Source: Lentisphaerae bacterium GWF2_45_14 (lineage in GTDB: Bacteria; Verrucomicrobiota; Lentisphaeria; Victivallales; GWF2-45-14). From it: a DNA stretch of 64,000 bases. The notes beneath the pieces were generated by a model, which was not told the origin of the DNA, ran no database searches, and was given only the letters and a program-made list of their open reading frames with translations. How positions within the stretch are numbered: the stretch's first letter is position 1; every line of letters starts with the position of its first letter. This document shows positions 36,948-61,760 of this stretch, piece by piece. A program made the position numbers and the translations under genes. The stretch spans positions 1-64,000 of the forward strand of contig MHBG01000059.1 of NCBI GenBank assembly GCA_001804785.1, written 5' to 3'.

Positions 36948-38864
36948 ATGCGCGAAATAATCGTAGGCGGCAAAAAAATAGGCGACGGCCATCCGTGTTA
37001 CCTCATAGGCGAAATAGGGCTTAACCATAATGGACGACTGGACATTGCTAAAAAGCTCGTTGATGTCGCTGTAGAGGCCGGCTTCAATGCCGTAAAGACT
37101 CAGAGGAGAAACCTTGCAACACTTTACCGTCCGGGCATTCTCGATGAGACGGAAACCGCCGACAAAGGCGTGCAGTATGTCATGCCGTTCCTCAAGAAGT
37201 TTCAGCTTCCGGACCGGGATCTGGTAAAACTCAAGGAATATGCGGAATCGAAGGGTCTGGACTTTCTCTGTACTCCCTTTGACTTCGAAAGCTACGAGTA
37301 CCTTGTCAATGAACTCGGCATAAAGTGCATAAAAATAGCGTCCGTCGACTTGCCCAATCTTCCGCTCCTTGAGCGCTACATATCAAGCAAGTTGCCAATG
37401 ATAATATCAACAGGAATGTCCACGGAAGAGGAAGTCAATAATACGTATAAGTTTTTGAAAAGCAAAGGTGCGGAGTTCGCGTTTCTACACTGCAATTCAA
37501 ATTATCCCGCCCCGTTTCAGCAGATAAATCTCAACTATATGCTGAAAATGAAAGAAGAATTCGGCATTCCAGTAGGTTACTCCGGACATGAACTCGGTAT
37601 AGCCGTTTCGATTGCGGCGGCGGCAATGGGTGCAAACATAGTCGAAAGACATATCACGCTCGACAGAACCATGGAAGGCCCCGACCATGCCGCGAGTCTC
37701 GAACCGACCGGAACGAAAAAGCTTGGACGCGATATCAGATGTATCGAAATGGCGATGGGAAGAAAAGAAAGATCGCTTTCGCGCGGCGAAGTGATGAACC
37801 GCCAGGCGCTCGGCAAGAGTCTTGTAGCGGCGCGCGACATCGTCACCGGAGAAAAGCTTTCCGAAAAAGACTTTTCGACAATGTCGCCGGGCGATGGACT
37901 TTCGCCACAAAAGTATAAAGAGCTTGTAAATGTAAATATAAAGCGCGCAATGAAAAAAGGCGATATTTTTCTTGCCTCCGATATCTCAGGCACTGCCGGA
38001 GAATGCTTCTCGAACGTCTCCTTCAAGTATGGCGTGATAGCCAGATGGCACGACATAAAGTTCCTGCTTGATAACTTTAAACCGACTATCCTCGAAGTGC
38101 ATATGACTGCCGACGACATGAATCACAGACCCGATATAAAAGAACAGGTCGAGCCGGAACTGGTCGTCCACATGCCCGAGCATTACGGAAATATTCTTCT
38201 TGACATATGTTCGCGCGACGAAGAGCACAGGGTGTGGTCGGTCGAAAGAATAAGGGAGGCCGCACGGCTCAGTGTGGAAGTGGCTCCCCTCTTTAAAAAT
38301 ACGCCGAAGAGACCTAAAATGGTTGTCCACCCTGGCGCGATGTCGGTTGATTCATTTCTTGACGCGAAGGAAGTCCAGAAACTCAGAGACCAGGCGCAAA
38401 GATCACTTGATGAGCTTGAGGGTCTCGAAGTCGAGATGATGCTTGAAAATATAGCTCCTTTTCCATGGTATCTCGGGGGGCAGTGGTACACTAACTACTC
38501 GCTTTCATCCGACGACATGCTGGAGTTGGTCAAGGGCCGCGACTACGGAATAACTTTCGATACTTCACATATGCAGCTTTACTGCAACTGGAAAGGTCTT
38601 GACATTGTCGAAGAGTTCAAAAAAGTAAGACACGTCATCAGGCACCTGCATGTGTCGGATGCGTCTGGAATCGACGGAGAAGGTCTTCAGATCGGAATGG
38701 GCAATCTCCCCTGGGAAAGCTTTGCTCCGTACATGTTTGACGGCGAAATGGTTATAATGCCCGAAATATGGCTGGGACATCTGCACGGGATGGCTGGAAT
38801 GAATGAGGCCCTCTTCAAGCTTCAGAAAATGTGGGATAATATCAACGGAAATAAAAAAGTCTGA
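36948..38864 (+). CDS. NeuB-like nonulosonic acid synthase fused to a sugar isomerase-like domain
   Basis: A 638-residue fusion. Residues 1-280 are a NeuB TIM barrel (IGEIGLNHNGRLDIAKKLVD at the start, STGMSTEEE and GYSGHE), which condenses phosphoenolpyruvate with a 6-carbon N-acetyl sugar to a nonulosonic acid; residues about 285-350 are the SAF antifreeze-like domain (SLVAARDIVTGEKLSEKDF). Residues about 360-638 form a second barrel of the xylose isomerase/AP endonuclease 2 superfamily, with MMLENIAPFP, TFDTSHMQLY and HLHVSDASG as probable metal-site segments. Single-function NeuB is about 340 residues. This is the first gene of the polysaccharide cluster. The exact product (sialic, legionaminic or other) is not determined; no NeuC, PseB or CMP-transferase is in the window. 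Confidence 0.88.
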   Translation: MREIIVGGKKIGDGHPCYLIGEIGLNHNGRLDIAKKLVDVAVEAGFNAVKTQRRNLATLYRPGILDETETADKGVQYVMPFLKKFQLPDRDLVKLKEYAESKGLDFLCTPFDFESYEYLVNELGIKCIKIASVDLPNLPLLERYISSKLPMIISTGMSTEEEVNNTYKFLKSKGAEFAFLHCNSNYPAPFQQINLNYMLKMKEEFGIPVGYSGHELGIAVSIAAAAMGANIVERHITLDRTMEGPDHAASLEPTGTKKLGRDIRCIEMAMGRKERSLSRGEVMNRQALGKSLVAARDIVTGEKLSEKDFSTMSPGDGLSPQKYKELVNVNIKRAMKKGDIFLASDISGTAGECFSNVSFKYGVIARWHDIKFLLDNFKPTILEVHMTADDMNHRPDIKEQVEPELVVHMPEHYGNILLDICSRDEEHRVWSVERIREAARLSVEVAPLFKNTPKRPKMVVHPGAMSVDSFLDAKEVQKLRDQAQRSLDELEGLEVEMMLENIAPFPWYLGGQWYTNYSLSSDDMLELVKGRDYGITFDTSHMQLYCNWKGLDIVEEFKKVRHVIRHLHVSDASGIDGEGLQIGMGNLPWESFAPYMFDGEMVIMPEIWLGHLHGMAGMNEALFKLQKMWDNINGNKKV

Positions 38865-38893: not shown

Positions 38894-40483
38894 ATGAATA
38901 TTGTACCCTTAGATATAGAGGCCCTTTCCGTGATGGAAATGGAAGCCTTTTTCAAGGCCCCGTTCTGGCCGTGCGGGCCTGATATTTATGATTCGATTGC
39001 CACCCAGAACATGGATTTTCTTTTCGGGCTCTACGATTCATTATTTGGAACGGAAAGAACACTTATTCAGCTTGTTTTCAGGCAGTTGTACATGGATTTT
39101 AATTTTTTCGCATGCGATTTCCTTGATGTCTTCTTTACAAAAAAGGCCGAAAGAAAACCTGTCTGCGGAAAAAACTCAGTTCTTTATAAAGGGACTATAG
39201 AGGAATCTTTATCGAACATTCCGCCCTCGATGGCACTCGACCGTAAGTCCTTTACGGAAAAACTAAAAGATGTACTCAGGCCTATCATAAAAAAACGCTT
39301 CGTGATGGAGTCCATAAATCAGGCAGGGACTCCACTTTATTTCACAAACGGTCTGACAAAAATGTTTTCTACGTACTGCTGTGAAAATTCACTCCCGGTA
39401 CCGTGCACAATTCCCAATTATTTTTTCAGCCGCGCGCCTTCCTTCTCGTTCAGGCTGAGCGGAGCGGAAAAACTATCGGAAACAGTCGCGGATGGATGGG
39501 CAAAAATCATTTCCTCAACCACCGGAACCCAACTACCTGAAAATTACCGCTCCTATGTAAAAGGAATAGCCGGCTATTATATTTCATGGGGACTGCGTGA
39601 CATTGTGAAAAAATGCCCGTTCCCACTCAAGGATTCCGTCTTTTTCAGCGGAACAGGCGGCGGCTACTGGAACAGGCTGATAAGCTTGAAGGTACAAAGT
39701 GTCGGCGGAACGGTGATACGTATGGACCACGGAGGCGAGAGGCCGTTTTTCGCGGACAAGTGGTGGGGCATTAACGAGCTTGCGTTCTGCGATAAGTTCG
39801 TAACCTTCAGCACGGCCGGGGCACTTCAGATAAAGAAAAATCTTGAAAAAGTTTACAGAACCTTGCTGGACTCCCCCGAGAAGCTTGAAGTTGAAACAAT
39901 AAAAGAAAAGAATTTTTCAGCATTGACGGAAAAAAGTACAAGATTTCCGCTGAAAAATGAAGTGCCAAAGTCGGTGATGCTTGTTCCTGCCGGCTTCATG
40001 GGCGAGTTCAACGCGGTTCCATCATTTACGGTGCCGGACGTACCTTATGCCGCTTTTCAGGTAAAAATTCTTGAAGCTCTGAAAAATGCCGGACTTGAGG
40101 TCTACTACAAGCAGGCTCCGAAGGCGGCACGCGACTGTCTTTTCGGGCCTGAAAAGTACGGTGCTAAAATAGTCAGGGGCTTTCTTTCGGAATGCCTGGA
40201 TATGCCGGACTCATTCCTTTTCACCTTCTGCGGAACGGCGTTCTGCGAGGCGCTCTGCACGGAAAAAATCATCATACTCATCAAGGCCCCACCATTCCGT
40301 CCTATGCTGCCGGAGCTGGAAAAGGAGCTGGATGCGGCATGCCGGGTAGTGAGGGGTTCTCTCGGCAAAGACAATATTCAGACTGTAAACATGGAAGAGC
40401 TTTTGAACGCATTAAAAAAACCGATGAGCACGTCCGAACTTGAAGAAAGAAGGATTTTCAGAGAAAAATGGCTTCTTCTATAG
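38894..40483 (+). CDS. Unrecognised cytoplasmic protein, possible GT-B type transferase
   Basis: A 529-residue protein I do not recognise. No signal peptide or membrane segment is seen. The middle contains MDHGGERPFFADKWWG and FCDKFVTFS, and the C-terminal third has YGAKIVRGFLSECL and FTFCGTAFCEALCTEKI, an arrangement like the nucleotide-binding half of GT-B glycosyltransferases and of surface-carbohydrate transferases. It sits 29 bp after the NeuB fusion, and the next gene overlaps its 3' end by 16 bp, so it belongs to the cluster. A glycosyltransferase role is inference. Confidence 0.55.
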   Translation: MNIVPLDIEALSVMEMEAFFKAPFWPCGPDIYDSIATQNMDFLFGLYDSLFGTERTLIQLVFRQLYMDFNFFACDFLDVFFTKKAERKPVCGKNSVLYKGTIEESLSNIPPSMALDRKSFTEKLKDVLRPIIKKRFVMESINQAGTPLYFTNGLTKMFSTYCCENSLPVPCTIPNYFFSRAPSFSFRLSGAEKLSETVADGWAKIISSTTGTQLPENYRSYVKGIAGYYISWGLRDIVKKCPFPLKDSVFFSGTGGGYWNRLISLKVQSVGGTVIRMDHGGERPFFADKWWGINELAFCDKFVTFSTAGALQIKKNLEKVYRTLLDSPEKLEVETIKEKNFSALTEKSTRFPLKNEVPKSVMLVPAGFMGEFNAVPSFTVPDVPYAAFQVKILEALKNAGLEVYYKQAPKAARDCLFGPEKYGAKIVRGFLSECLDMPDSFLFTFCGTAFCEALCTEKIIILIKAPPFRPMLPELEKELDAACRVVRGSLGKDNIQTVNMEELLNALKKPMSTSELEERRIFREKWLLL

Positions 40484-44590: not shown

Positions 44591-46471
44591 GTGTGCGGCT
44601 TTGTAGGCGTAATATCCAAAACAGCAAAAAAGTTTCCCGAGGAAACCCTCAGGAAAATGAACGCGATGATTGTTCACCGCGGTCCTGATGATGAAGGTTT
44701 TTTCTCCGACGGCGAATGGATTTCGCTTGCATTCAGGCGATTAAGCATTCTCGATTTGAGCGAAAAGGGGCATCAGCCCATGGTCGACCGCGAAAACGGT
44801 CTTGCGATAGTCTTTAACGGGGAGATATATAATTTCAAGGAATTGAGAAGCGAGCTTCAGGCTTCAGGATGTTCATTTAATTCCGACAGCGATACAGAGG
44901 TGTTGCTTGCAGCCTACAGGGTATGGGGTAAGAAATGCCTCGACCGCTTCATCGGGATGTTTGCGTTCGTTATTGCCGACCTGCGGAAGAAGGAGGTTTT
45001 TTTCGCACGGGATCAGCTAGGGATAAAGCCGCTTTTCCACTTTGAGGATGCCGACTACCATATATTTTGCAGCGAAATAAAGTCGATTCTCCCCTATAAA
45101 AACCTTGAACCCGACCCAACCGCATTCGACGAATACATCATTTTCCGCTCTGTTATCGGAAGCAACACGATGTTCAAAGGCGTCTCGAGTGTTCTTCAGG
45201 GGCATTGCGGCGAGCTGAAAACAGGGCGGGTCAGGATATCGAAATACTTTGACATTAATTCCACAATAAGACATAACAAGAGTAAAAGTTTTGAGGACTC
45301 CTGTGAAGAAACAGAGCATCTTTTCAGGGAAAGCGTCAAAATCCATCTGAGGAGCGATGTTGAGCTAGGCGTACAGTTGAGCGGTGGTGTTGACTCAAGC
45401 CTGATAACCGCGCTCGCCTCGGAAATGACGGGAAAAAAGCTGCATTCGTTCTCAATCTCTTTCAAGGAGGATGTTTACGACGAATCCGAGTATCAGAAGA
45501 GGATATCGAAACGCTACAACACCGAACACCACGATTACGCCATGAGCAGCGATATTTTCATGGATTTCCTCATGCCCTCAATATGGCACTATGAGCACCC
45601 GCTGAACGATCCCAATACCGTGTGTACCTACTACCTTACAGAACAGGCAAGGAAACATATCACGGTAATGCTTGCCGGTGAAGGCGCGGACGAGTCTTTC
45701 ATGGGCTACGGAAGGTTCAGCCATGAATTTCTGGCGAATATACGGAAGAGAAATTTTCTTTACTATCATCCGGGCATAAGAAATTTGATATCTCGTTTAT
45801 GGCCTCTTAAAAAGGGCGAATCATTTTTAAATATTTCCCGCTATTCACCTTCCATGTATGCGCTTTCATATGCCGATTTAAACTTTACAGACCTTCTTCT
45901 TAAAGGAGATGATTCCGGAATAAAGTTCCGAAAAGAAGTTCTTAAAATGGGAGATCGCGACTCCTTGATGGAAACAATCCTCCAGTATGAATTATGCGAC
46001 CTCCCACAATGGTTCTGGAGGGCCGACAGAATGGGCATGGCTTCGTCGATGGAACTCAGGGTTCCTTTCTGCACCGTTCCGATGTTCTCTCTGGCGAATA
46101 CCATACCGTACAGCAAGCATCTGCGGGGCGGCGTCTGCAAATCGGTACTCAAAAAAGTAGCCGAAAAATATATTGACAACGATCAGATATACCGTAAGAA
46201 AGTCGGTTTCGGAACCCCGTTCAAGGAATGGATACTCAAAGCCGGAGGCCGAGGCTCAGATCTCTTCGAGGAGGTAATAAATTCCGAGTCAATAAGGAAA
46301 AGAGACGGCATCAACTCCGAACATCTCGACAATATTCTGAAATTGATGAAGGAAGGAAAATTCCAGGAAACAAACGCAGGCTTCCTCTGGACGTATTTCT
46401 GTTTCGAGCTTTGGTACAGAATATTTTTTGACGGCGGATGGAAAAAGTTCGCGCCCGCGGAGGCTTTATAA
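44591..46471 (+). CDS. asnB: Glutamine-dependent asparagine synthetase-like amidotransferase, copy 1
   Basis: A 626-residue protein starting at a GTG so that Cys2 becomes the glutaminase nucleophile (CGFVGVIS); GGAGGG lies 8 bp upstream. The class II glutaminase has IVFNGEIYNF and RDQLGIKPLF; the synthetase PP-loop is LSGGVDSS at about 263. Longer frames with an upstream start would bury the nucleophile and are rejected. Paralogs in surface-glycan clusters (WbpS-like) amidate uronic acids; that is more likely here than free asparagine synthesis, but asparagine cannot be excluded. It starts 5 bp after the ABC gene and abuts the next asnB copy with no gap. Confidence 0.87.
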   Translation: MCGFVGVISKTAKKFPEETLRKMNAMIVHRGPDDEGFFSDGEWISLAFRRLSILDLSEKGHQPMVDRENGLAIVFNGEIYNFKELRSELQASGCSFNSDSDTEVLLAAYRVWGKKCLDRFIGMFAFVIADLRKKEVFFARDQLGIKPLFHFEDADYHIFCSEIKSILPYKNLEPDPTAFDEYIIFRSVIGSNTMFKGVSSVLQGHCGELKTGRVRISKYFDINSTIRHNKSKSFEDSCEETEHLFRESVKIHLRSDVELGVQLSGGVDSSLITALASEMTGKKLHSFSISFKEDVYDESEYQKRISKRYNTEHHDYAMSSDIFMDFLMPSIWHYEHPLNDPNTVCTYYLTEQARKHITVMLAGEGADESFMGYGRFSHEFLANIRKRNFLYYHPGIRNLISRLWPLKKGESFLNISRYSPSMYALSYADLNFTDLLLKGDDSGIKFRKEVLKMGDRDSLMETILQYELCDLPQWFWRADRMGMASSMELRVPFCTVPMFSLANTIPYSKHLRGGVCKSVLKKVAEKYIDNDQIYRKKVGFGTPFKEWILKAGGRGSDLFEEVINSESIRKRDGINSEHLDNILKLMKEGKFQETNAGFLWTYFCFELWYRIFFDGGWKKFAPAEAL

Positions 46472-48325
46472 ATGTGCGGCATACTCGTAAATATAAGCCG
46501 AGAAAGAATTCGTCCCGACCACCCGGCGCTTGAAATAATAAAACACCGGGGGCCGGACGCTTTCGGCGCAGAGACCTTTGAAACCCCCGCGTCGTTATTA
46601 AGTTTCGGGCACAGGAGGCTTTCCATCATAGACCTTTCGGAGAGAGGTCGCCAGCCCATGTCTTACGCAAACGGAAATCTCTGGATAACCTACAACGGAG
46701 AAGTCTATAATTACCTCGAAATAAGAGAAGAGCTGGAAAGGGAGAACTTTAGCTTTGTTTCGGATTCCGATACCGAGGTTATTCTGGCGGCCTACATGAG
46801 GTGGGGAAGCGCCTGCCTCGACAGGTTCAACGGAATGTTCTCTTTTGCTATTTACGATAAGAAAGCGGCCACGCTTTTCATTGCACGCGACAGGCTGGGG
46901 ATAAAACCGCTCTATTACAATAACAGTCCGTCGGGGTTCAGGACGGTTTCCGAAATAAAACAGTTTACCGGGTTCAGTGATTTCGTTCCCGAAGCCGATA
47001 CGGAAAGGCTTTACCATTACCTCAACACCGGAGATTTTTCATTCGACAGCCGCACCATGTGGAGGAACGTAACCGAGCTTGAACCGGGTCATTGCATTGA
47101 ACTTGACCTTTCAAAATGGAAACCCGGCAACGAAATAACGCCGCGCAGATGGTACAGCCCGCCGTTCGGACCGGAGTTGGACATTACCTTTGAAGATGCC
47201 ATTTCAGAATTTCGCGAAAAACTTGATCAATCGGTAAAGTTCCGGCTCAGGGCGGATGTTCCTGTCGGCTTTCTTCTTTCGGGAGGACTTGACTCCTCGA
47301 CACTGGTAGGCTTGGGACACCTTTTCCCGCGGGAAAAAGATGCCGGTCTCAAAACTTACTCCTCATGTTACGACGACAAGTCCATAGATGAAAGGAAGTA
47401 CATAAAGGCCGTACTCGCAAGTACCGGGGCGGACTCCTCGCTGCACTTTCCGAAACCCGACGACGTACGGGAAAACCTCGACAGGGTAATATGGCACAAC
47501 GATATACCTATACTTCACGGTTCGCCGGTCCCTCACTGGCTTCTCTATAAGCACGTCAGGGCGGAAAATGACAACCGCAAGGTCATCATTGAAGGCCAGG
47601 GCGCGGATGAGATTCTCTGCGGCTATGGCGATTTTCACTGGGCCTTCTTTTCTGAAATGCTCAGGAAAGGGCATCTGATCGATCTGGCCTCGGAATTCAT
47701 ACCGTTCCAAATGCGCCACCATGAGGAATGGAAGATAATCATAAGAAAGTTCATCAGGCTTTCCGCTCCGGACAGGATACCCTCGCCCGTAAATCCCCTC
47801 CTCAATACGGAATTCCTTTTCAACGGTGGAAAAGTCCAACCCCGCCCGACGAGAAGAGAAGAGCCGAATGTGCCGTCACTGCACAGGAACAGGCTCACCA
47901 TTCTAAGATATATATTGCATAATGTGGACAGGAACTCAATGGCCCACTCACGTGAAACAAGAGTGCCATTCCTAGACTATAAGCTCGTGGAATTCTGCCT
48001 CAGGTTGCCATCCGTCTACAAGATACACAGAGGACTTACAAAGAGGGTAATGCGCGAGGCGGTGAAGGACGTGCTTCCGCCTCTTGTGGGCAACAGGCAC
48101 GACAAGCAGGGCTACTCAAGTCCGGTTGGACGCTGGGCAGCGGGTGAGCTGAAGGATTTTTTCGCAGAAAATTTAAGGAACGCTTCTGATTTGCCTTTTG
48201 TGAGAAAAGAAACAATATTAGATGCCTTTACGAAGTTTACAAAGACGGGAGGGGCGTTTGACCCTGTCTGGTGGCGGATAATAAATGCAAAAAGATGGAT
48301 TGATATTTTTAAGATTAAGATATGA
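46472..48325 (+). CDS. asnB: Glutamine-dependent asparagine synthetase-like amidotransferase, copy 2
   Basis: A 617-residue paralog of the previous gene. MCGILVNIS places the nucleophile Cys2, ITYNGEVYNY and RDRLGIKPLYY complete the glutaminase, and LLSGGLDSS at about 269 is the AMP-forming PP-loop. The ATG comes directly after the previous stop, with GGAGG eight bases before it. The adjacent copies are diverged, which argues against a very recent duplication. Probably transfers ammonia to a carboxyl on the glycan or its precursor. Confidence 0.87.
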   Translation: MCGILVNISRERIRPDHPALEIIKHRGPDAFGAETFETPASLLSFGHRRLSIIDLSERGRQPMSYANGNLWITYNGEVYNYLEIREELERENFSFVSDSDTEVILAAYMRWGSACLDRFNGMFSFAIYDKKAATLFIARDRLGIKPLYYNNSPSGFRTVSEIKQFTGFSDFVPEADTERLYHYLNTGDFSFDSRTMWRNVTELEPGHCIELDLSKWKPGNEITPRRWYSPPFGPELDITFEDAISEFREKLDQSVKFRLRADVPVGFLLSGGLDSSTLVGLGHLFPREKDAGLKTYSSCYDDKSIDERKYIKAVLASTGADSSLHFPKPDDVRENLDRVIWHNDIPILHGSPVPHWLLYKHVRAENDNRKVIIEGQGADEILCGYGDFHWAFFSEMLRKGHLIDLASEFIPFQMRHHEEWKIIIRKFIRLSAPDRIPSPVNPLLNTEFLFNGGKVQPRPTRREEPNVPSLHRNRLTILRYILHNVDRNSMAHSRETRVPFLDYKLVEFCLRLPSVYKIHRGLTKRVMREAVKDVLPPLVGNRHDKQGYSSPVGRWAAGELKDFFAENLRNASDLPFVRKETILDAFTKFTKTGGAFDPVWWRIINAKRWIDIFKIKI

Positions 48326-49188
48326 AAAAGACGCATATAATAATTTTTTCCAAGGACAGAACACTTCAGCTTAAATCGTTGCTTCTCTCGGCAAAACATT
48401 ATTCCGGGATAGACGAGAAAAATATTACGATACTCTATAAGGCCGATTCCGGCATAAGTTATAAGTCTCTGATAAATGAGTTTAAATGCGAATTTGTGCG
48501 GCAGGGTAATTTCCTTGAGGACGTTAAAAATATAATTAACGGCAGCAAATCCGAGTATATAGGGTTCATGGTGGACGACCTCATTTTCTACGATTCCTTC
48601 AGCTGGGATACGATTGAGGGCTTTATGGAAACAAGGAAGGACGTCGGTTGCTTTACACTCAGGCTCGGCAGAAATATAAAGCGAGGAAACTCACCGGATT
48701 TCAAGGATGCCGGTGACGGCATAATCACTTGGGACACGGCGAGAGATCAAGGGAAATACTGGAATTATTTCTGGGAGCTTTGCAGTTCCGTCTACCGCCG
48801 GAAACTTGTTATGAAGTATCTCGCCAGATGCCGCCCGGAAAAAGAAAGGTTTCCAAACCCGTTCGAGGCCCATTTCTATACATGCATGCCTACGACAAGA
48901 TGCGACGGAATAGTAAGGCTTGTCAATTCCGTGCGTTTTGTCTTCAATAAGAAAAGCGAGCGAGTTGCCTGTTTCGAAAAATCAAAATGTTTTACTCAGG
49001 GCGTGAATCTTGTTGCCGACATCGGAGTGGAAAGGAAAGAGTTTCACTCAATTGAGGAACTCCACAATAAAATGCTGAAAGGCTATATCGCAGATTACCT
49101 TTCGCTGAAGGATGTCCAGACCGACAATCCCCAGCCGGGTCCGGCATTTTTCAAACTTGTGAAGGAAGAGACTCCGGTAAATGGCTGA
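48322..49188 (+). CDS. Putative GT-A type glycosyltransferase
   Basis: A 288-residue protein. It opens like GT2 enzymes with HIIIFSKDRTLQLKSLL and carries FMVDDLIFYD at about 72-81, where Asp-Asp can serve as the metal-binding DxD. CSSVYRRKLVMKYL follows. It overlaps the asnB stop by 4 bp. The family is not certain and the sugar is unknown. Confidence 0.65.
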   Translation: MKKTHIIIFSKDRTLQLKSLLLSAKHYSGIDEKNITILYKADSGISYKSLINEFKCEFVRQGNFLEDVKNIINGSKSEYIGFMVDDLIFYDSFSWDTIEGFMETRKDVGCFTLRLGRNIKRGNSPDFKDAGDGIITWDTARDQGKYWNYFWELCSSVYRRKLVMKYLARCRPEKERFPNPFEAHFYTCMPTTRCDGIVRLVNSVRFVFNKKSERVACFEKSKCFTQGVNLVADIGVERKEFHSIEELHNKMLKGYIADYLSLKDVQTDNPQPGPAFFKLVKEETPVNG

Positions 49189-51037
49189 ACAATTCAAATC
49201 CGTATTCTCAATCCCTTATTTTCTGATGAGCTTCGGAGATGACACGGGCGCATGTCCTCTCAAGGAAAAGGGCAAAAAACTTTCTTTTTCCGGCGCTGGA
49301 AAAAGGCTTTCAATTGATTTTTCGGGAGTACTCCCTGCCCCGTCGGTAAGGGAAACGGAAAAAACGGTTTCGGTTATAATAGCCGGTTTTCCTGTAATTG
49401 ACGAAATAGCAGGAAGGGGCGGATTGCTTGACGAGCTGGCTTCAAAACCGAAGCCGGAAGCGAACTTTATTAGGAAAATTGACGGCGAATTTCTCTTTAT
49501 TCATTTCGACAAGAGCAGCGGAAAACTTTTCATAGTCAACGACCGTTTTACATCAATGCCTCTTTTTTACCACATAGACAGTGCGGGGAAAACTCTTACG
49601 GCAAGCCCTTATTTTACCTGTCTCTGGCGCTATCTTTCGGCGACAAATCAGCTCAGGATTGAAAAGGAAGCTTTCTTCGAGTTTCTCTGGTTCCAGCGGC
49701 TTTTCGGCACCAAAACTTATGCAAAGGACGCTTACTTTCTGCCGGATGCCTCGATACTTGAGTTCGGCAGCGGCCCCGTCAGGATAGAAAATTACTGGAA
49801 GCGCAATTACGAAAAAAGCCGTCTCAGCCTGAATGACCATTCCCATAGGATGGCCGAACTTACTAAAAAAAGTGTCCGATGGAAAACGGAAGACGGTAAG
49901 CGTTACGGGCATTTTCTGAGCGGGGGTATGGATTCGCGCTCCGTGCTGGCGGCCTTCGAGGACAATTTTCCTGTCTGTTTTACGGCGACAGTTGGTGAAA
50001 ACCGGGAACTTCGAATCGCACGTGAGATTGCCATCACTAAGGGGTCCCAGCATCTCGCACTGGAGCTGGATGAGGAGCATTACGGTAAAATACTGCGTCC
50101 TTCTGTCGAGGTAATCGGCGGAATGTACAATTATGACCACGGTCTTTTCTACGGTTTTAATGAGGCCGTAAACACAAGGGCCGACGTATGTTTCCACGGG
50201 CACGGCTTCGACTATATGTTCCAGGGTATGTATATTCCTGGGAAAAATCTCAATTTCCAGGGCAGGACGCTTTATTATAGAACGATGATGGAGCCGCCCG
50301 AAGACCTGACAAATTTCTTCATCGAAAATGCATCGTACAGAATAAAAAAGGCAAATATCTGGAAATATATCGCGGAAGATAAAAAATTGGCTCTCAGGGA
50401 ATTTCAGCAAGCGAGTATCAATGGGGTTTTGGAGCGCGGAAAAGAGCTTACTTCAAACCGTTTCGATCTTTGGGAATATCTTACATTTCACCATCTTTCC
50501 AGGCATTACAGTTACCCCAACCACGCGAGCATAGCCACATTTTCGGAGCAGCGGACAATATCCTTCATCAACGAACTTTTTGATCTCTACCTGACGCTTC
50601 CGGCGGAACACCGCTTCAACGGCAGGATAGAAAAGAAATGCCTTCAGATACTTGATAAGCGACTGGCACATATCTGGAGCGCCAATACAAATCTGCCAGT
50701 TACGGCCTCCTGTCTGAAACAAACGCTTTATCAGATTGCAGGATTCGCAAAGAGACGTATATTCCCAGAACGACAGGACGCCGACAAGGAATGGGCCGAA
50801 AGGACATGGCCAACACGGGACTATGCCCTGAGAAATCAGGAGACCCTCAAAAACGCAGTGAAGTCCCTTTGTTCCTCGGACACTCTTGACAGTCTGGGCT
50901 TTTTTGATATGACAAAGTTGAAGAAAGATTTTCCCAAATGGATAGACGGTGAAAATGTGGAGGGCGTCAGCGGAGATCTTGTGCAGACCGTCCTCACAAT
51001 AGGAACTTTTTTAAATATGAAGAATCAGCGAGGTTGA
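49181..51037 (+). CDS. Asparagine synthetase-like protein without the glutaminase cysteine, copy 3
   Basis: A 618-residue protein with the asparagine synthetase fold. Residues 90-160 keep traces of the glutaminase domain (KIDGEFLFIHFD, VNDRFTSMPLFY), but the N-terminus has no Met-Cys-Gly and starts MAEQFKSVF, so glutamine hydrolysis is unlikely. The PP-loop is intact as LSGGMDSR at about 245. It could use free ammonia or another nucleophile, as in beta-lactam synthetases, which also lack the Cys. It overlaps the previous gene by 8 bp, and the carbamoyltransferase starts 5 bp after it. Confidence 0.8.
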   Translation: MAEQFKSVFSIPYFLMSFGDDTGACPLKEKGKKLSFSGAGKRLSIDFSGVLPAPSVRETEKTVSVIIAGFPVIDEIAGRGGLLDELASKPKPEANFIRKIDGEFLFIHFDKSSGKLFIVNDRFTSMPLFYHIDSAGKTLTASPYFTCLWRYLSATNQLRIEKEAFFEFLWFQRLFGTKTYAKDAYFLPDASILEFGSGPVRIENYWKRNYEKSRLSLNDHSHRMAELTKKSVRWKTEDGKRYGHFLSGGMDSRSVLAAFEDNFPVCFTATVGENRELRIAREIAITKGSQHLALELDEEHYGKILRPSVEVIGGMYNYDHGLFYGFNEAVNTRADVCFHGHGFDYMFQGMYIPGKNLNFQGRTLYYRTMMEPPEDLTNFFIENASYRIKKANIWKYIAEDKKLALREFQQASINGVLERGKELTSNRFDLWEYLTFHHLSRHYSYPNHASIATFSEQRTISFINELFDLYLTLPAEHRFNGRIEKKCLQILDKRLAHIWSANTNLPVTASCLKQTLYQIAGFAKRRIFPERQDADKEWAERTWPTRDYALRNQETLKNAVKSLCSSDTLDSLGFFDMTKLKKDFPKWIDGENVEGVSGDLVQTVLTIGTFLNMKNQRG

Positions 51038-51041
51038 AATC

Positions 51042-52814
51042 ATGTATATTCTGGGTATAAATACCGGATTAAATTCATCGGCTGTTCTGATGAAAGACAA
51101 CAAGATTGTCTTCGCAATACAGGAAGAGCGGATATCAAGAATCAAGAATCAGCCCGGTTTCCCGAAACTGTCCATTAAGGCGGCCCTTGAGAAATTTAAT
51201 CTTTCCATTGACGACATAGACAAGGTGGTGCTTGGGGGAAAAGGCTCCAAAATGATAGAATGCAGGGAAGATGATATCAATAAATTTCATACCCGATATA
51301 ATATCATAAAGAAAAAATGGTTCGGCGATGAAATCGATTTCCCGTCCTTCGGCACGCTGTTGCAAAAAGGGATACGCAGGCTCGCAGGAAAAAGCCCCAA
51401 AGGCAGGAAAAAGGTTATTGAAGACTATCTCAAAGAGGCCGGCATACACGAAAAACACGAGAGGTTTGAACACCACCTTTGCCATGCTGCATGTGCATAT
51501 TACGGGCTCGCCCCAAGGAAAGACGACGACAAATATCTGGTATTTTCACTTGACGGCGGCGGCGACAGCAAGACCAGCGCCGTCTATATCGGAGAAAAAG
51601 GCAAGCTTAGCGAAATAGCCTCGTCCGACTCATTTTCACCGGCCTGCATATACGCGCACGTCACATATATAATGGGTTTTATTCCGCATGAGCACGAGTA
51701 CAAGCTCATGGGGCTTGCTCCCTACGCCCAGAAAAAATACGCAGAAAAAGCCAAGGATATTTTGAAAGATTTTGTCGGATTCGACAAGGAAAACCCGCTG
51801 GTTTTTAACAATACGGGAAAATATCCCGACGTAAGAAACTCCCGCGGAGAAGCGAAACAGAAACTGGTTGAGGACCTTTTTAAATCAGTATTTACCCTGA
51901 GATTCGATACCCTTTCAGCCGGACTCCAGCTCATGGCAGAGGATGTGGCGATAGAATGGGTAAAGGCAGGCATAAAAAAGACCGGAATAAAGAAGGTGCT
52001 TCTTTCCGGGGGCTTCTTTATGAATGTGAAGGCCAATAAACTCATAGCGGAATTGCCGGAAGTGGAGTTCGTCAGCTGTTTTCCGTCGTGCGGAGACGAA
52101 GCAAATGCGTTCGGGGCGGCATTTCTGGGCTATGAAAGCGCCAGGGGAAAAGATTCGCCCCATATTGAATTCAATACTTGCTGCCTGGGGACTGAAGCTT
52201 CCGACGACATAGAAGAGGCCATGAAGAAATATTCAAATAATGTTTCCTTCCGCAAGTCCTCCGATATAAATGAAGAGATCGCCGAAATGCTGGTTGCCCG
52301 CAAGATAGTCGCGCGTTGTTCGGGAAAGATGGAATTCGGTGCGAGAGCGCTCGGGAACAGATCTATTATCGCATCTCCCGATGACCTTAGGATAATAAAT
52401 AAAATCAACGCGGCGATAAAGAAGAGGGACTTTTGGATGCCATTTGCACCCGCTGTAATGGAGGACAAACTTGAAACGGTTGTCGATGTGCCGGATTCTC
52501 TAAAAGAACTCTATTCGCCTTATATGATGTTTACCTTTCAGGCAAAAAATGAAATGTGGGACAAGGTCATTGCCGGAATACATCAGACAGATAGAACCGC
52601 GCGGGCCCAAACTGTCAACCCCGCGACATACCCGGAATTCTATGATTTGATTAGTAAATTTTACAAGAAAACAGGTATCCCGTCGGTTCTGAACACCTCC
52701 TTCAATCTTCACGGGTTCCCGATTGTAATGGGCGCATGCGATGCGGTTGACGTTTACCTCGATTCGGAACTGGACGTGCTGGTGGTAGATGATTACGTCA
52801 TAACCAGAAAATAG
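51042..52814 (+). CDS. Carbamoyltransferase (NodU/CmcH family)
   Basis: A 590-residue enzyme that transfers a carbamoyl group from carbamoyl phosphate to a hydroxyl, with ATP. The N-terminal Kae1-like part starts with YILGINTGLNSSAVLM and has the metal-binding HHLCHAACAYYG at about 144-155; the C-terminal domain carries GARALGNRSI at about 434 and PSVLNTSFNLHG. In NodU the acceptor is a Nod-factor sugar and in CmcH a cephalosporin; here a sugar of the surface polysaccharide is the natural guess. Confidence 0.92.
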   Translation: MYILGINTGLNSSAVLMKDNKIVFAIQEERISRIKNQPGFPKLSIKAALEKFNLSIDDIDKVVLGGKGSKMIECREDDINKFHTRYNIIKKKWFGDEIDFPSFGTLLQKGIRRLAGKSPKGRKKVIEDYLKEAGIHEKHERFEHHLCHAACAYYGLAPRKDDDKYLVFSLDGGGDSKTSAVYIGEKGKLSEIASSDSFSPACIYAHVTYIMGFIPHEHEYKLMGLAPYAQKKYAEKAKDILKDFVGFDKENPLVFNNTGKYPDVRNSRGEAKQKLVEDLFKSVFTLRFDTLSAGLQLMAEDVAIEWVKAGIKKTGIKKVLLSGGFFMNVKANKLIAELPEVEFVSCFPSCGDEANAFGAAFLGYESARGKDSPHIEFNTCCLGTEASDDIEEAMKKYSNNVSFRKSSDINEEIAEMLVARKIVARCSGKMEFGARALGNRSIIASPDDLRIINKINAAIKKRDFWMPFAPAVMEDKLETVVDVPDSLKELYSPYMMFTFQAKNEMWDKVIAGIHQTDRTARAQTVNPATYPEFYDLISKFYKKTGIPSVLNTSFNLHGFPIVMGACDAVDVYLDSELDVLVVDDYVITRK

Positions 52815-57164: not shown

Positions 57165-58346
57165 ATGAAAATACCGTTGATGAAATGTGCTTTTTCGCAT
57201 GAAGAAGAGACAAAGCGGAAGCTCGCGGAATTTATAATCAGCGCTCCAAGGCTCAGCATGGACAAGCAGTGCGCGATGTTCGAAAAGGAATTCTCCACGT
57301 ATCAGGGTCAAAGGGACGGAATATTTTTCAACAGTGGCGGCAGCGCAAATTTGGCAATGTTCCAAGCATTAAAAAACCTTGGCCTCCTTAAAAACGGCGA
57401 CAAAATAGGATTTTCAGCACTCACGTGGTCGACAAATCTGATGCCGATAATCCAGCTTGGAATGGAGCCTGTGGCGGTGGACTGTGATTCGCACACCCTC
57501 AACGTAATGTCGCACAACCTGAAAAAGCGTCTTGCCGATACAAAACTTCAGGCGCTTTTCATAACCAACGCGCTAGGTTTCGCCGGGGATCTCGACGAGA
57601 TAAAAAATATATGCCATGAAAATAAAATGCTGCTCCTCGAAGATAACTGTGAAGCACTCGGCACCGAACTTAAAAATGGCGGAAAGACAGGTACCTTCGG
57701 AGGAATGGCGAGCTTTTCTTTTTTCGTGGCGCATCACATGTCAACCGTCGAGGGCGGCATGATTTGTACCGACAACTCCGAATATGCCGAGATGCTCAGA
57801 ATTGTCCGGGCAAACGGTTGGGATAGAAACCTTACCCCCGCCCAGCAGGAAAAATGGCGCGCCAGATATGGGGTAGGCTCTGAATTCGAAGCTAAATATA
57901 CCTTTTTCGATCTCGGGTTTAACCTCAGGCCGAACGAAATGACGGGCTTCCTCGGGCGTTCTCAGCTCAAATACCTTCCCGAAAATGTGATAAAAAGGCA
58001 GGAGCATTATCTCAGGCTAGAAAAAACCATGCTTTCCAATCCCGATTTGCTCGGCTTCACGCATGATCATATAAAACTGCTTTCCAATTTTGCCTTCCCG
58101 GTGATGTGCAAAAGCATGGAACTCCGCGAAAAATATGTCTCTATATTTGAAAAGGCAGGAGTTGAGGCGCGCCCCATGATTGCCGGCAATATCCAGAAGC
58201 AGCCTTTTTATAAGAAATATGTATCAAAGCTTTACGAGCTGCCCGGAGCTGATGCCGTACATGACTGCGGCTTCTACTGCGGAAACTGCCCGGAACTCAA
58301 TGATGAAGAACTCAATATAATTGCAGACGCTCTTAGGAAAAAGTGA
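57165..58346 (+). CDS. ColD-like PLP-dependent sugar 3-dehydratase (DegT/DnrJ/EryC1 fold)
   Basis: A 393-residue DegT-family protein in which the PLP-binding lysine of aminotransferases is replaced. Where aminotransferases have a Lys, the sequence reads SFFVAHHMSTVEGG, putting His190 in its place. That His is characteristic of the coenzyme-B6 3-dehydratases ColD (GDP-4-keto-6-deoxymannose) and DdhC/E1 (CDP sugar). The length is close to ColD (388) and shorter than DdhC; the DdhC ferredoxin reductase partner is absent; and gmd directly upstream makes the ColD substrate. ATG at 57165 is preferred over a frame start at 57132. Confidence 0.8.
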   Translation: MKIPLMKCAFSHEEETKRKLAEFIISAPRLSMDKQCAMFEKEFSTYQGQRDGIFFNSGGSANLAMFQALKNLGLLKNGDKIGFSALTWSTNLMPIIQLGMEPVAVDCDSHTLNVMSHNLKKRLADTKLQALFITNALGFAGDLDEIKNICHENKMLLLEDNCEALGTELKNGGKTGTFGGMASFSFFVAHHMSTVEGGMICTDNSEYAEMLRIVRANGWDRNLTPAQQEKWRARYGVGSEFEAKYTFFDLGFNLRPNEMTGFLGRSQLKYLPENVIKRQEHYLRLEKTMLSNPDLLGFTHDHIKLLSNFAFPVMCKSMELREKYVSIFEKAGVEARPMIAGNIQKQPFYKKYVSKLYELPGADAVHDCGFYCGNCPELNDEELNIIADALRKK

Positions 58347-58948
58347 TGACTGAAAAAAACATAGTATGGTCCGAGAGCAATATATCCTCGGAAGAAAGAG
58401 AAAAAGCGCTGGGCCAGAAGGGCTGTGTGGTCTGGCTTACCGGGCTTTCCGGCTCGGGAAAGTCCACAATCGCCAGAGAGCTTGAAAAGATGCTTTTTGA
58501 AAAGGGAAGGACGGCATATATCCTTGACGGGGACAATGTCCGTCACGGACTATGTTCAGACCTCAAGTTTTCGGATGCCGATAGAGAAGAAAATATCAGG
58601 CGGGTTTCCGAGCTGGCCGCCCTTTTCGCCGATGCCGGACTTATTACGATAACGGCATTCATTTCTCCATTTACCGCCGACAGGCGAAAGGCGCGGAAGC
58701 TTCTTTCTGATGGGAGGTTTTTTGAGGTTTTCGTAGATGCGCCGTTCGAGCTATGCCGTGAGCGAGATCCGAAGGGCCTTTATAAAAAAGCGGCTAGCGG
58801 CGAAATCACCTCGTTTACCGGAATAGATTCGCGTTATGAAAAGCCTCTCAACGCTGAGCTTGTATTAGAAACGGGAATTCTTTCGGTCAGAGCTGCCGCG
58901 GAAAATATAATCTGCCTATTGATTGAAAGGGGAATTTGGGGGAAATGA
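58346..58948 (+). CDS. cysC: Adenylylsulfate (APS) kinase
   Basis: A 200-residue kinase that makes PAPS, the sulfate donor. Walker [10 protein letters not shown] is at about 33-41, DGDNVRHG follows, and [16 protein letters not shown] and [11 protein letters not shown] are family segments. The start is ATG in TGATG, overlapping the previous stop by 1 bp, with AGGA upstream; a GTG at 58343 is possible. With cysD and cysN and without a PAPS reductase it points to sulfation of the glycan rather than to cysteine synthesis. Confidence 0.94.
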
Positions 58949-59853
58949 GCGGAAAATATAATCTTAATCATCTTAAGCAGCTGGAGTCGGAAAGCATTCA
59001 TATAATGCGTGAAGTAGCTTCCGAGTTCGAACGGCCCGTAATGCTTTACTCTATAGGAAAAGACTCGTCCGTAATGCTCAGACTCGCGGAAAAAGCGTTT
59101 TATCCGGGAAAAATCCCATTCCCTCTTATGCATGTCGATACAGGGTTCAAGTTCAAGGAAATGTATGAATTCCGCGATACCTACATCAAAGAAATCGGCG
59201 CTGAACTCATAATCTACCGCAACGAAAAATCAATCAGCGAAAAGATGAACCCCTACGATTACGGCACTCAGAAATGCTGCTCCTTTCTCAAGACACAGGC
59301 GCTTGTAGATTCCATAAGGGCAATGAAGTTCGATGTGGCATTCGGCGGCGCTAGGAGAGACGAAGAAAAATCGCGTGCGAAGGAAAGAATATACTCGTTT
59401 CGCGACGAGTCGGGCCAGTGGGATCCTAAAAACCAGCGACCCGAGCTTTGGGACATTTACAACGGGAAAATAAATAAGGGTCAGTCAATAAGGGTTTTTC
59501 CGCTTTCAAACTGGACGGAACTTGACGTATGGAACTATATATACCTCGAAAAAATACCTATAGTCCCGCTCTATTTCGCGAAGGAAAGAGAAATGGTCGT
59601 AAGGGATGGTCAGCTTATTCCATGCGACGGACCAGTGCCGCTCGGCAAAAACGAGAAGACCACAAAAATCATGAGCCGTTTCAGAACACTGGGCTGCTAC
59701 CCATGCACTGGAGCAATAAAGTCTACTGCCGCAACGGTTCCTGACATTATTCAGGAAATGATGACCGTGACCATTTCCGAGCGCTCCACAAGAATCATCG
59801 ATCACGACGCGGAAGGTTCGATGGAAGACAAGAAAAAGGAGGGCTATTTCTGA
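58945..59853 (+). CDS. cysD: Sulfate adenylyltransferase subunit 2
   Basis: The PP-loop ATPase subunit of ATP sulfurylase, forming APS with CysN. Of 302 residues, the PP-loop is SIGKDSS at 36-42, followed by [20 protein letters not shown] and [18 protein letters not shown]. The ATG overlaps the cysC stop in ATGA and the cysN start overlaps its own stop in TGATG, so the three subunits are translated together. It ends with [12 protein letters not shown], the usual CysD C-terminus. Confidence 0.96.
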
Positions 59854-61760
59854 TGAATATAGAGGAATTTCTCAAAAACGACGCAGAAAAAGACCTTCTC
59901 CGCTTTTCCACCGCTGGCAGCGTAGACGATGGAAAATCCACCCTTATCGGAAGACTTCTTCACGATTCGAAGCAGATATATGAGGATCAGCTCGCGTCCG
60001 TAAAAAAAGCATCGGGAAAGATAAACGCAGATCTTGAGATCGACTTTGCTCTCGTCACCGACGGCCTCAAGGCCGAACGGGAACAAGGTATAACCATCGA
60101 CGTGGCATACCGTTACTTCTCAACTCCGAAAAGAAAGTTCATAATTGCCGATACCCCCGGACACGAGCAGTATACCCGAAATATGGCAACTGGCGCATCC
60201 ACCGCCAATCTCGCGATAGTCCTGATAGACGCCAGAAACGGGGTGCTTACACAATCAAAACGGCATGCCTTTATTTCTTCGCTTCTCGGAATACCGCACA
60301 TGGTAGTGGCGATAAACAAAATGGACATTGTTAACTATAGCGAAGAAGTCTTTGAGAGGATAAAAAAAGAATTTTCTGAATTCGCATCCAAGCTCAATAT
60401 AAGGGACTTGCACTTCATCCCAATGAGCGCGCTCAATGGCGACAATGTGGTCGAGCCGTCCCCCGGCAATATGCCGTGGTACAAGGGTCAGTGCCTAATG
60501 GAGCTGCTCGAAAATATCTATATAGGAAGCGACAGAAACCTTATAGACCTGCGCTTTCCGGTGCAGTACGTCATCAGGCCGACGCAGGACTTCAGGGGCT
60601 ACAGCGGCAGGGTCGCCTCCGGAATAATCAGGAAGGGCGATGAGATAATGGTCATGCCCTCAATGAAGAAAAACAGGGTGAAATCCATAATCACATTCGA
60701 TGGCGAACTCAATGAGGCTGTTGTCGGAGAATCAGTTACGATTGCGCTCGAAAAGGAAGTCGATATCAGCCGCGGCGACATGATAGTCCATCCCAACAAC
60801 CTGCCTTCCTGCGAAAACCACTTCGAGGCAATGGTCGTATGGATGAGCGAAGTACCGCTGGACCCGGCAAAGTCATATCATATAAAGCACACCTCGAATA
60901 TGACCAGCATAAGTATCGATGAAATCCGGTATAAAATAGATGTGAACACCATGCACAGGCTTAACACTGACTCGCTAACGCTTAACGAGATAGGCCGGGT
61001 AGTCTTCTCCAGCCGCAAAAAAATATTCTTCGACCCCTATTCCAAAAATAAAGCCGTCGGAAGCTTCATCATAATAGATAAAATAAGCAACAACACCATC
61101 GCTGCCGGAATGATACTCGACAGGCTTTCAGCCGATAAACTGCCGAAAAAAATAAGCCGCCCTGCCGAAGCATCGAATTACAAGAACTACCGCATGGTGA
61201 GTACTGAAGAGAAATCCGCACGCTATTCGCAGAGCCCCGTAACATTATGGTTAACCGGGCTTGTCTCATCGGGCAAACGCGAGATTGCCTGGAAAATAGA
61301 GAAGGAGCTTTTCGATAAAGGTCACTCCGCAATAGTAATGGACGCTTCAACAATCCGCTCGGGTATCTGCCGCGAACTGGAATTCACTCAGTCCGACAGG
61401 ACGGAAAATATTCGTCGCGCCGCTGAAATATCCAGAATGCTCAACGACAACGGCCTCGTATCGGTATGCGCCTTTGTCTCGCCTGACGAATCCGTGAGAA
61501 AACAGCTTTCCTCGATAATAGGCCAGGAGCGTTTTATCGAAATATACGTGAAGGCCTCTCTGGAATCATGCAAAAAACGCAACCCTGCCATTTATGAAAA
61601 AGCCTTGAGCGGCGAGATAGAAAATTTTACCGGAGTAAGCGCACCTTATGATGAACCAGTATCACCCGCACTGACTCTCAATATGAACTCAATGACCGTT
61701 GACGAAGCCGCCGCTTCCGTAATAGACTATATGACGAAAAACAGTTTTATAAGGAACTGA
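59853..61760 (+). CDS. cysN: Sulfate adenylyltransferase subunit 1 with a degenerate C-terminal APS kinase domain
   Basis: A 635-residue CysNC-like fusion. Residues 1-430 are the GTPase that drives APS synthesis: [10 protein letters not shown]-loop at 22-30, [15 protein letters not shown] as switch region and [15 protein letters not shown]. Residues about 460-635 are homologous to APS kinase but look inactive: the P-loop is G469-LVSS-G474-K475-R476 with Arg instead of Ser/Thr, and the DGD triad of the previous cysC is here DAS. The intact neighbouring cysC supplies the kinase. GGAGG lies before the ATG. Confidence 0.93.

Follow-up and report, generated by a model that had tools for sequence, protein, structure and literature searches.

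Several described systems are related to the gene studied here. In AsnB-type enzymes, the residues E348, E352 and K449 serve adenylation and amide formation, i.e., the handling of the carboxylate and its adenylate. Beta-lactam synthetase and carbapenam synthetase (CarA) are Cys-less, glutamine-independent ligases of the AsnB fold, with a Tyr at the Glu348 position, a partner Glu and a conserved Lys. The lasso-peptide cyclases (NF033535) are a further AsnB-fold family, of isopeptide-forming ligases. Argininosuccinate synthetase and the acetamidino-forming PseA/WbpG are PP-loop enzymes with non-carboxylate-type chemistry. To our knowledge, few Cys-less AsnB relatives have a known function, and their chemistry (beta-lactams, lasso peptides) is prized. 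In other surface-glycan loci, AsnB-like enzymes have been found to convert uronic acids to their amides (PMC7468200; PMC12407052). The AsnB-like PesC is a precedent for a PP-loop enzyme carrying out an amide-to-nitrile step; mutants showed the importance of its Glu363-Tyr368 pair, which has a spacing of five residues and is also conserved in E. coli AsnB (PMC13060819).

The gene at 49181-51037 lies in a surface-glycan type cluster of the window, i.e., the whole 64-kb stretch of DNA that was analysed. The features referred to below are as follows.

36948-38864, + strand: NeuB-type nonulosonic acid synthase fused to a TIM-barrel domain, in the same cluster
44591-46471, + strand: canonical AsnB 1, GTG start, complete glutaminase and synthetase residues (Pfam, alignment)
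46472-48325, + strand: canonical AsnB 2, complete glutaminase residues (Pfam, alignment)
48322-49188, + strand: uncharacterised 288-aa protein (ORF), conserved in loci L009 and L015 only
49181-51037, + strand: Cys-less AsnB-fold protein of 618 aa (ORF, Pfam, AlphaFold2 model, alignment)
49181-49801, + strand: its degenerate Ntn (glutaminase-like) N-terminal domain, about residues 1-207 (alignment, structural matches to GlmS and PurF)
49916-49939, + strand: its PP-loop LSGGMDSR, residues 246-253 (alignment)
50198-50233, + strand: GHGFDYMFQGMY, residues 340-351, which replaces GEGxDExxxGY of AsnB (alignment)
51042-52814, + strand: O-carbamoyltransferase of NodU/CmcH type (Pfam)

The cluster comprises NeuB, glycosyltransferases, a DegT aminotransferase, sulfate activation, an ABC transporter and the carbamoyltransferase. 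The TIM barrel fused to the NeuB-type synthase is AP_endonuc_2 or xylose-isomerase-like, and the 529-aa protein at 38894-40483, which has no Pfam match, has relatives in the NeuB-containing loci L017, L018 and L120. Sulfate activation is represented at 58343-61760 by APS kinase, PAPS-reductase-like and GTPase/APS-kinase genes. The gene at 48322-49188 shares 8 bases with the 5' end of the Cys-less gene, the end of which is followed 4 bases later by the carbamoyltransferase; this arrangement suggests one operon. An earlier note on this DNA had described the product of 48322-49188 as GT-A-like; this could not be confirmed, as the protein has no Pfam match and its structure model is too poor (pLDDT 41) to support such an identity. 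The two canonical AsnBs of the window, and not the 618-aa protein, look like the uronamide-forming AsnBs of the WbpS and PGN_1234 type, which likewise stand in surface polysaccharide clusters and are ordinary amidotransferases annotated as AsnB (PMC7468200; PMC12407052).

The open reading frame at 49181-51037 is intact, with an ATG start and no internal stop. An in-frame TAA immediately precedes the ATG, so that no longer start could supply Met-Cys-Gly, and the DNA further upstream codes for another gene (48322-49188). A Cys-Gly-[IFV] start was also absent from all stop-to-stop frames of the orthologs examined. The absence of Met-Cys from the N-terminus, claimed in the earlier note, is thus genuine and is common to all relatives (Cys in 0/34); a hidden start or frameshift supplying Cys-Gly, which that note had named as the observation that would speak against it, is excluded by the upstream TAA and the agreeing orthologs. 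In Pfam scans the protein matched Asn_synthase (PF00733) with 54.5 bits (cut-off 21), placing it in the AsnB superfamily, and GATase_7 only marginally, over residues 94-142 (27.3 bits against a cut-off of 25). No NCBIfam model scored above its cut-off: TIGR01536, the model of asparagine synthetase, gave 88 bits against a cut-off of 267, and the lasso-peptide cyclase model NF033535 gave 36.4 bits, far below its curated cut-off of 525. The CarA profile matched at 2.2e-4.

Altogether 34 relatives were gathered from Lentisphaerae, Bacteroidetes, Alphaproteobacteria including SAR11, and haloarchaea, none of them with the Cys. Among 84,980 species genomes scanned, 12 relatives with 31-65% identity were found (Lentisphaerae/Verrucomicrobia, one Bacteroidetes, two SAR11 and one alphaproteobacterial genome), and further relatives were added by whole-genome searches. 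The distribution is patchy, with 9 of 388 genomes in the phylum sample and 13 of 385 in the class sample around L020. The matches in a viral collection (47) and a phage collection (2) were weak and mostly partial, and no close relatives of the Cys-less protein were among them. The remote haloarchaeal relatives sit on plasmids and are annotated as "asparagine synthase-related protein"; a literature search on that name found no paper on the Cys-less family by title or abstract. Three of them (WP_254546589.1, WP_253521276.1 and WP_227380444.1) share the loss of the Cys, the motif SGG[GS]DSR and the same side of the AsnB branch with the 618-aa protein, but have only 22-27% identity to it and different gene neighbourhoods. 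A plasmid of Halorussus vallis carries a tandem pair of Cys-less AsnB-like genes (L088:7698-11695), one of them with LSAGQDSR.

In the ML tree, the 34 Cys-less proteins were separated from 14 canonical AsnBs with support of 100/100; the outgroup consisted solely of the AsnBs of these loci and of E. coli, and midpoint rooting was used for drawing only. The haloarchaeal L090 and L088b were on long branches. Alphaproteobacterial and some haloarchaeal members start with MIGLFG, MIGLYG, MVGLIG or MTGFVG, and such starts are, to judge from their sequences, a Cys-substituted relic of MCGIFG; members of the Lentisphaerae branch have an entirely different start. The dN/dS values for computable pairs of close orthologs were 0.066-0.069, similar to those of the adjacent canonical AsnBs (0.056-0.088), and indicate purifying selection, although the ratios are rough because synonymous sites are near saturation. 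With dN/dS of about 0.07, an intact frame and broad conservation, a pseudogene can be ruled out. Since the pattern is common to all 34 relatives and the dN/dS is purifying, the loss of the Cys is neither chance nor local decay. On sequence grounds, the Cys-less clade is an ancient, cross-domain clade of the AsnB superfamily without a name.

The active-site residues were compared in a MAFFT genafpair alignment of the 34 Cys-less proteins with 14 canonical AsnBs (E. coli AsnB and 13 canonical neighbours). Of the glutaminase residues, Cys1, Asn74 and Asp98 were each present in 0/34 relatives, and Gly75 was kept in all 34. The N-terminal domain of the 618-aa protein likewise lacks Cys1, N74 and D98 and retains G75 and the GEF and NDRF strands; at the AsnB columns R49, N74, E76 and D98 it has R, A, F and L, the R49 column being poorly aligned, and so differs here from AsnB. 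Without these residues the protein could not hydrolyse glutamine by the Ntn-Cys mechanism, which agrees with the earlier proposal that the protein has no glutamine-derived ammonia of its own. On the synthetase side, the PP-loop LSGGMDSR was found intact, as had been claimed, and the form LS[GA]GxD[ST]R is common to 34/34 relatives. Its Arg (Arg253 of the 618-aa protein, position 240) occurs in all 34 relatives and in none of the 14 canonical AsnBs. Asp351 of AsnB is kept in 33/34 and corresponds to Asp344 here, so that both the SGGxDS loop and the second Asp of AsnB are present, and with them the two conserved aspartates for metal and ATP. The loss of ATP-binding residues in a full alignment, the other refutation considered in the earlier note, was therefore not seen; it is other synthetase residues that are lost. 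Glu352 was present in 0/34 relatives. The Glu348 column has His, Tyr, Leu, Met or Cys instead, with His in the 618-aa protein and most close relatives and Tyr in L013, L092, L093, L094 and L095. The Lys449 column has Pro or Arg in nearly all relatives and Lys in few, and as the C-terminal region is poorly alignable, Lys449 is probably, rather than certainly, lost in the 618-aa protein. Glu352 and Tyr357 are replaced there by Tyr and Met. From the spacing, we infer that the Glu363-Tyr368 pair of PesC corresponds to Glu352-Tyr357 of AsnB; this dyad is thus absent. The clade has conserved residues of its own, in GHGFDY, SGGxDSR, SANTNLPVTAS and RTWPxR. Taken by column, the residues for ATP and PPi stay and those on the acceptor side change, and since the new conserved residues stand in for the Glu/Tyr/Lys set of AsnB, an aspartate-like acceptor is improbable.

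The AlphaFold2 model of the 618-aa protein, built from a 12-row alignment, had a pLDDT of 87.7 and a pTM of 0.89. In Foldseek searches of the PDB, the best match was the hydroxyamidotransferase TsnB9 (7ylz; TM 0.66), the name of which implies that its nitrogen nucleophile is not just ammonia; with 14% identity, the kinship is at the superfamily level only. Beta-lactam synthetase (E 7.5e-18), CarA (E 1.2e-15) and AsnB followed. Further down were GlmS and PurF, as would be expected if the N-terminal domain is Ntn-like. The E-value ranking of beta-lactam synthetase over AsnB was disregarded because the TM-scores place AsnB higher (0.54, against about 0.46 for beta-lactam synthetase). The predicted structure thus favours the AsnB/beta-lactam-synthetase-like fold suggested earlier. 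The protein shares with AsnB the two domains, the PP-loop, the second Asp of G-x-G-x-D and the predicted overall fold; however, the missing glutaminase and synthetase residues rule out an asparagine synthetase proper. With beta-lactam synthetase and CarA it shares a Cys-less AsnB fold, but identity is only 12-16%, their Tyr is a His here, there is no conserved Lys in the aligned column, and the loci are those of glycans and not of antibiotics.

The Cys-less clade probably works mostly in surface-glycan, often nonulosonic-acid, loci. NeuB-like genes were found near the Cys-less gene in L009, L017, L112, L115, L119 and L121, and no evident glycan cluster was found around the members in L093, L095, L113 and L114. 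The carbamoyltransferase, which the earlier note had taken as a functional clue, is directly downstream in Lentisphaerae/Verrucomicrobia loci only; it is therefore ruled out as an obligate partner and says little on the family as a whole. Just upstream of the Cys-less gene in L017, a chimera or fusion (L017:3956-5699) joins a Cys-less-type GATase_7-like N-terminal domain in frame to a protein like that at 38894-40483 of the window, without a PP-loop.

Based on these results, a glutamine-independent, AMP-forming ligase of surface-glycan loci, receiving no ammonia from its own N-terminal domain, is the best reading of the 618-aa protein, although we give it about as much credence as doubt. Such an enzyme would still bind MgATP and release PPi, and would adenylate a sugar or glycan intermediate at an acidic group or another group with an oxygen. 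As nucleophile it would use an amine of the substrate or a co-substrate, or outside ammonia; in some loci, the outside ammonia may come from a co-transcribed canonical AsnB. However, E348, E352 and apparently K449 are not conserved in the clade, which makes the predicted ATP turnover less certain, and the four loci without an evident glycan cluster do not fit well. Of the glycan amide ligase proposed earlier, the part resting on the ATP/PPi residues stands; amide formation is no more than a possibility, as E348, E352 and, by alignment, K449 are replaced and the Glu-Tyr dyad is absent. A rather unlikely explanation is a split amidotransferase, in which a canonical AsnB encoded next door supplies the ammonia and the Cys-less protein acts as the synthetase half, the two forming a hetero-oligomer or channelled pair. 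An AsnB with a complete glutaminase site is indeed found within 1 kb on the same strand in 10/34 loci, spanning Lentisphaerae, Bacteroidetes, SAR11 and another alphaproteobacterium, and the frames mostly overlap or nearly touch (L010, L011, L016-L020 and L094). The AsnBs that immediately follow the Cys-less gene in four of these loci (L017:7731-9539, L018:7753-9492, L019:7714-9453 and L020:3323-5116) have T, L or M in place of Glu348, which would fit a division of labour; three of these four have SSGxDS rather than SGGxDS. On the other hand, the partner AsnBs keep all glutaminase residues, SGG/SSGxDS, E352, Y357 and K449 and look self-sufficient, and no AsnB was found within 1 kb at the other 24 loci, including an eight-member alphaproteobacterial group, although contig ends cut some of them (L092, L014). 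A dedicated glutaminase partner is therefore possible and not obligatory, and the earlier suggestion of a neighbouring glutaminase fits those 10 loci only.

The joint loss of the glutaminase site and the E352/K449-type residues, together with the canonical AsnB adjoining the gene in some loci, could also point to a pseudoenzyme that binds a nucleotide or glycan intermediate and regulates or scaffolds the other AsnB-like enzymes of the cluster, with no chemistry of its own. We regard this as unlikely, given that the PP-loop and the second Asp hardly vary across bacteria and archaea, that the new invariant His/Arg/Asn set looks like a rebuilt active site, and that many Cys-less copies have no AsnB nearby. 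Alternatively, the PP-loop might adenylate a non-carboxylate group, e.g., an amide, ureido or N-acetyl oxygen, in amidine formation or dehydration. The loss of carboxylate-handling residues with retention of those for ATP, the NeuB context and the PP-loop precedents mentioned above are in line with this; however, the family scans gave no sequence match to WbpG/PseA, and we consider it quite improbable.

The Cys-less clade is undescribed in the libraries and open literature searched and belongs to the AsnB/beta-lactam-synthetase kind, not to a new category. Across bacteria and archaea its members are annotated merely as "asparagine synthase-related", with no specific Pfam or NCBIfam model, and such genes should not be read as asparagine synthetases. 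The residue signature and several compact loci make the role of the clade directly testable. As a tentative proposal, this cross-domain clade with its rebuilt synthetase site may carry out an undescribed ATP-dependent modification of surface-glycan sugars, such as amide ligation of a sugar acid to a non-ammonia amine or activation of a non-carboxylate group, and in some lineages may do so in partnership with a canonical AsnB.
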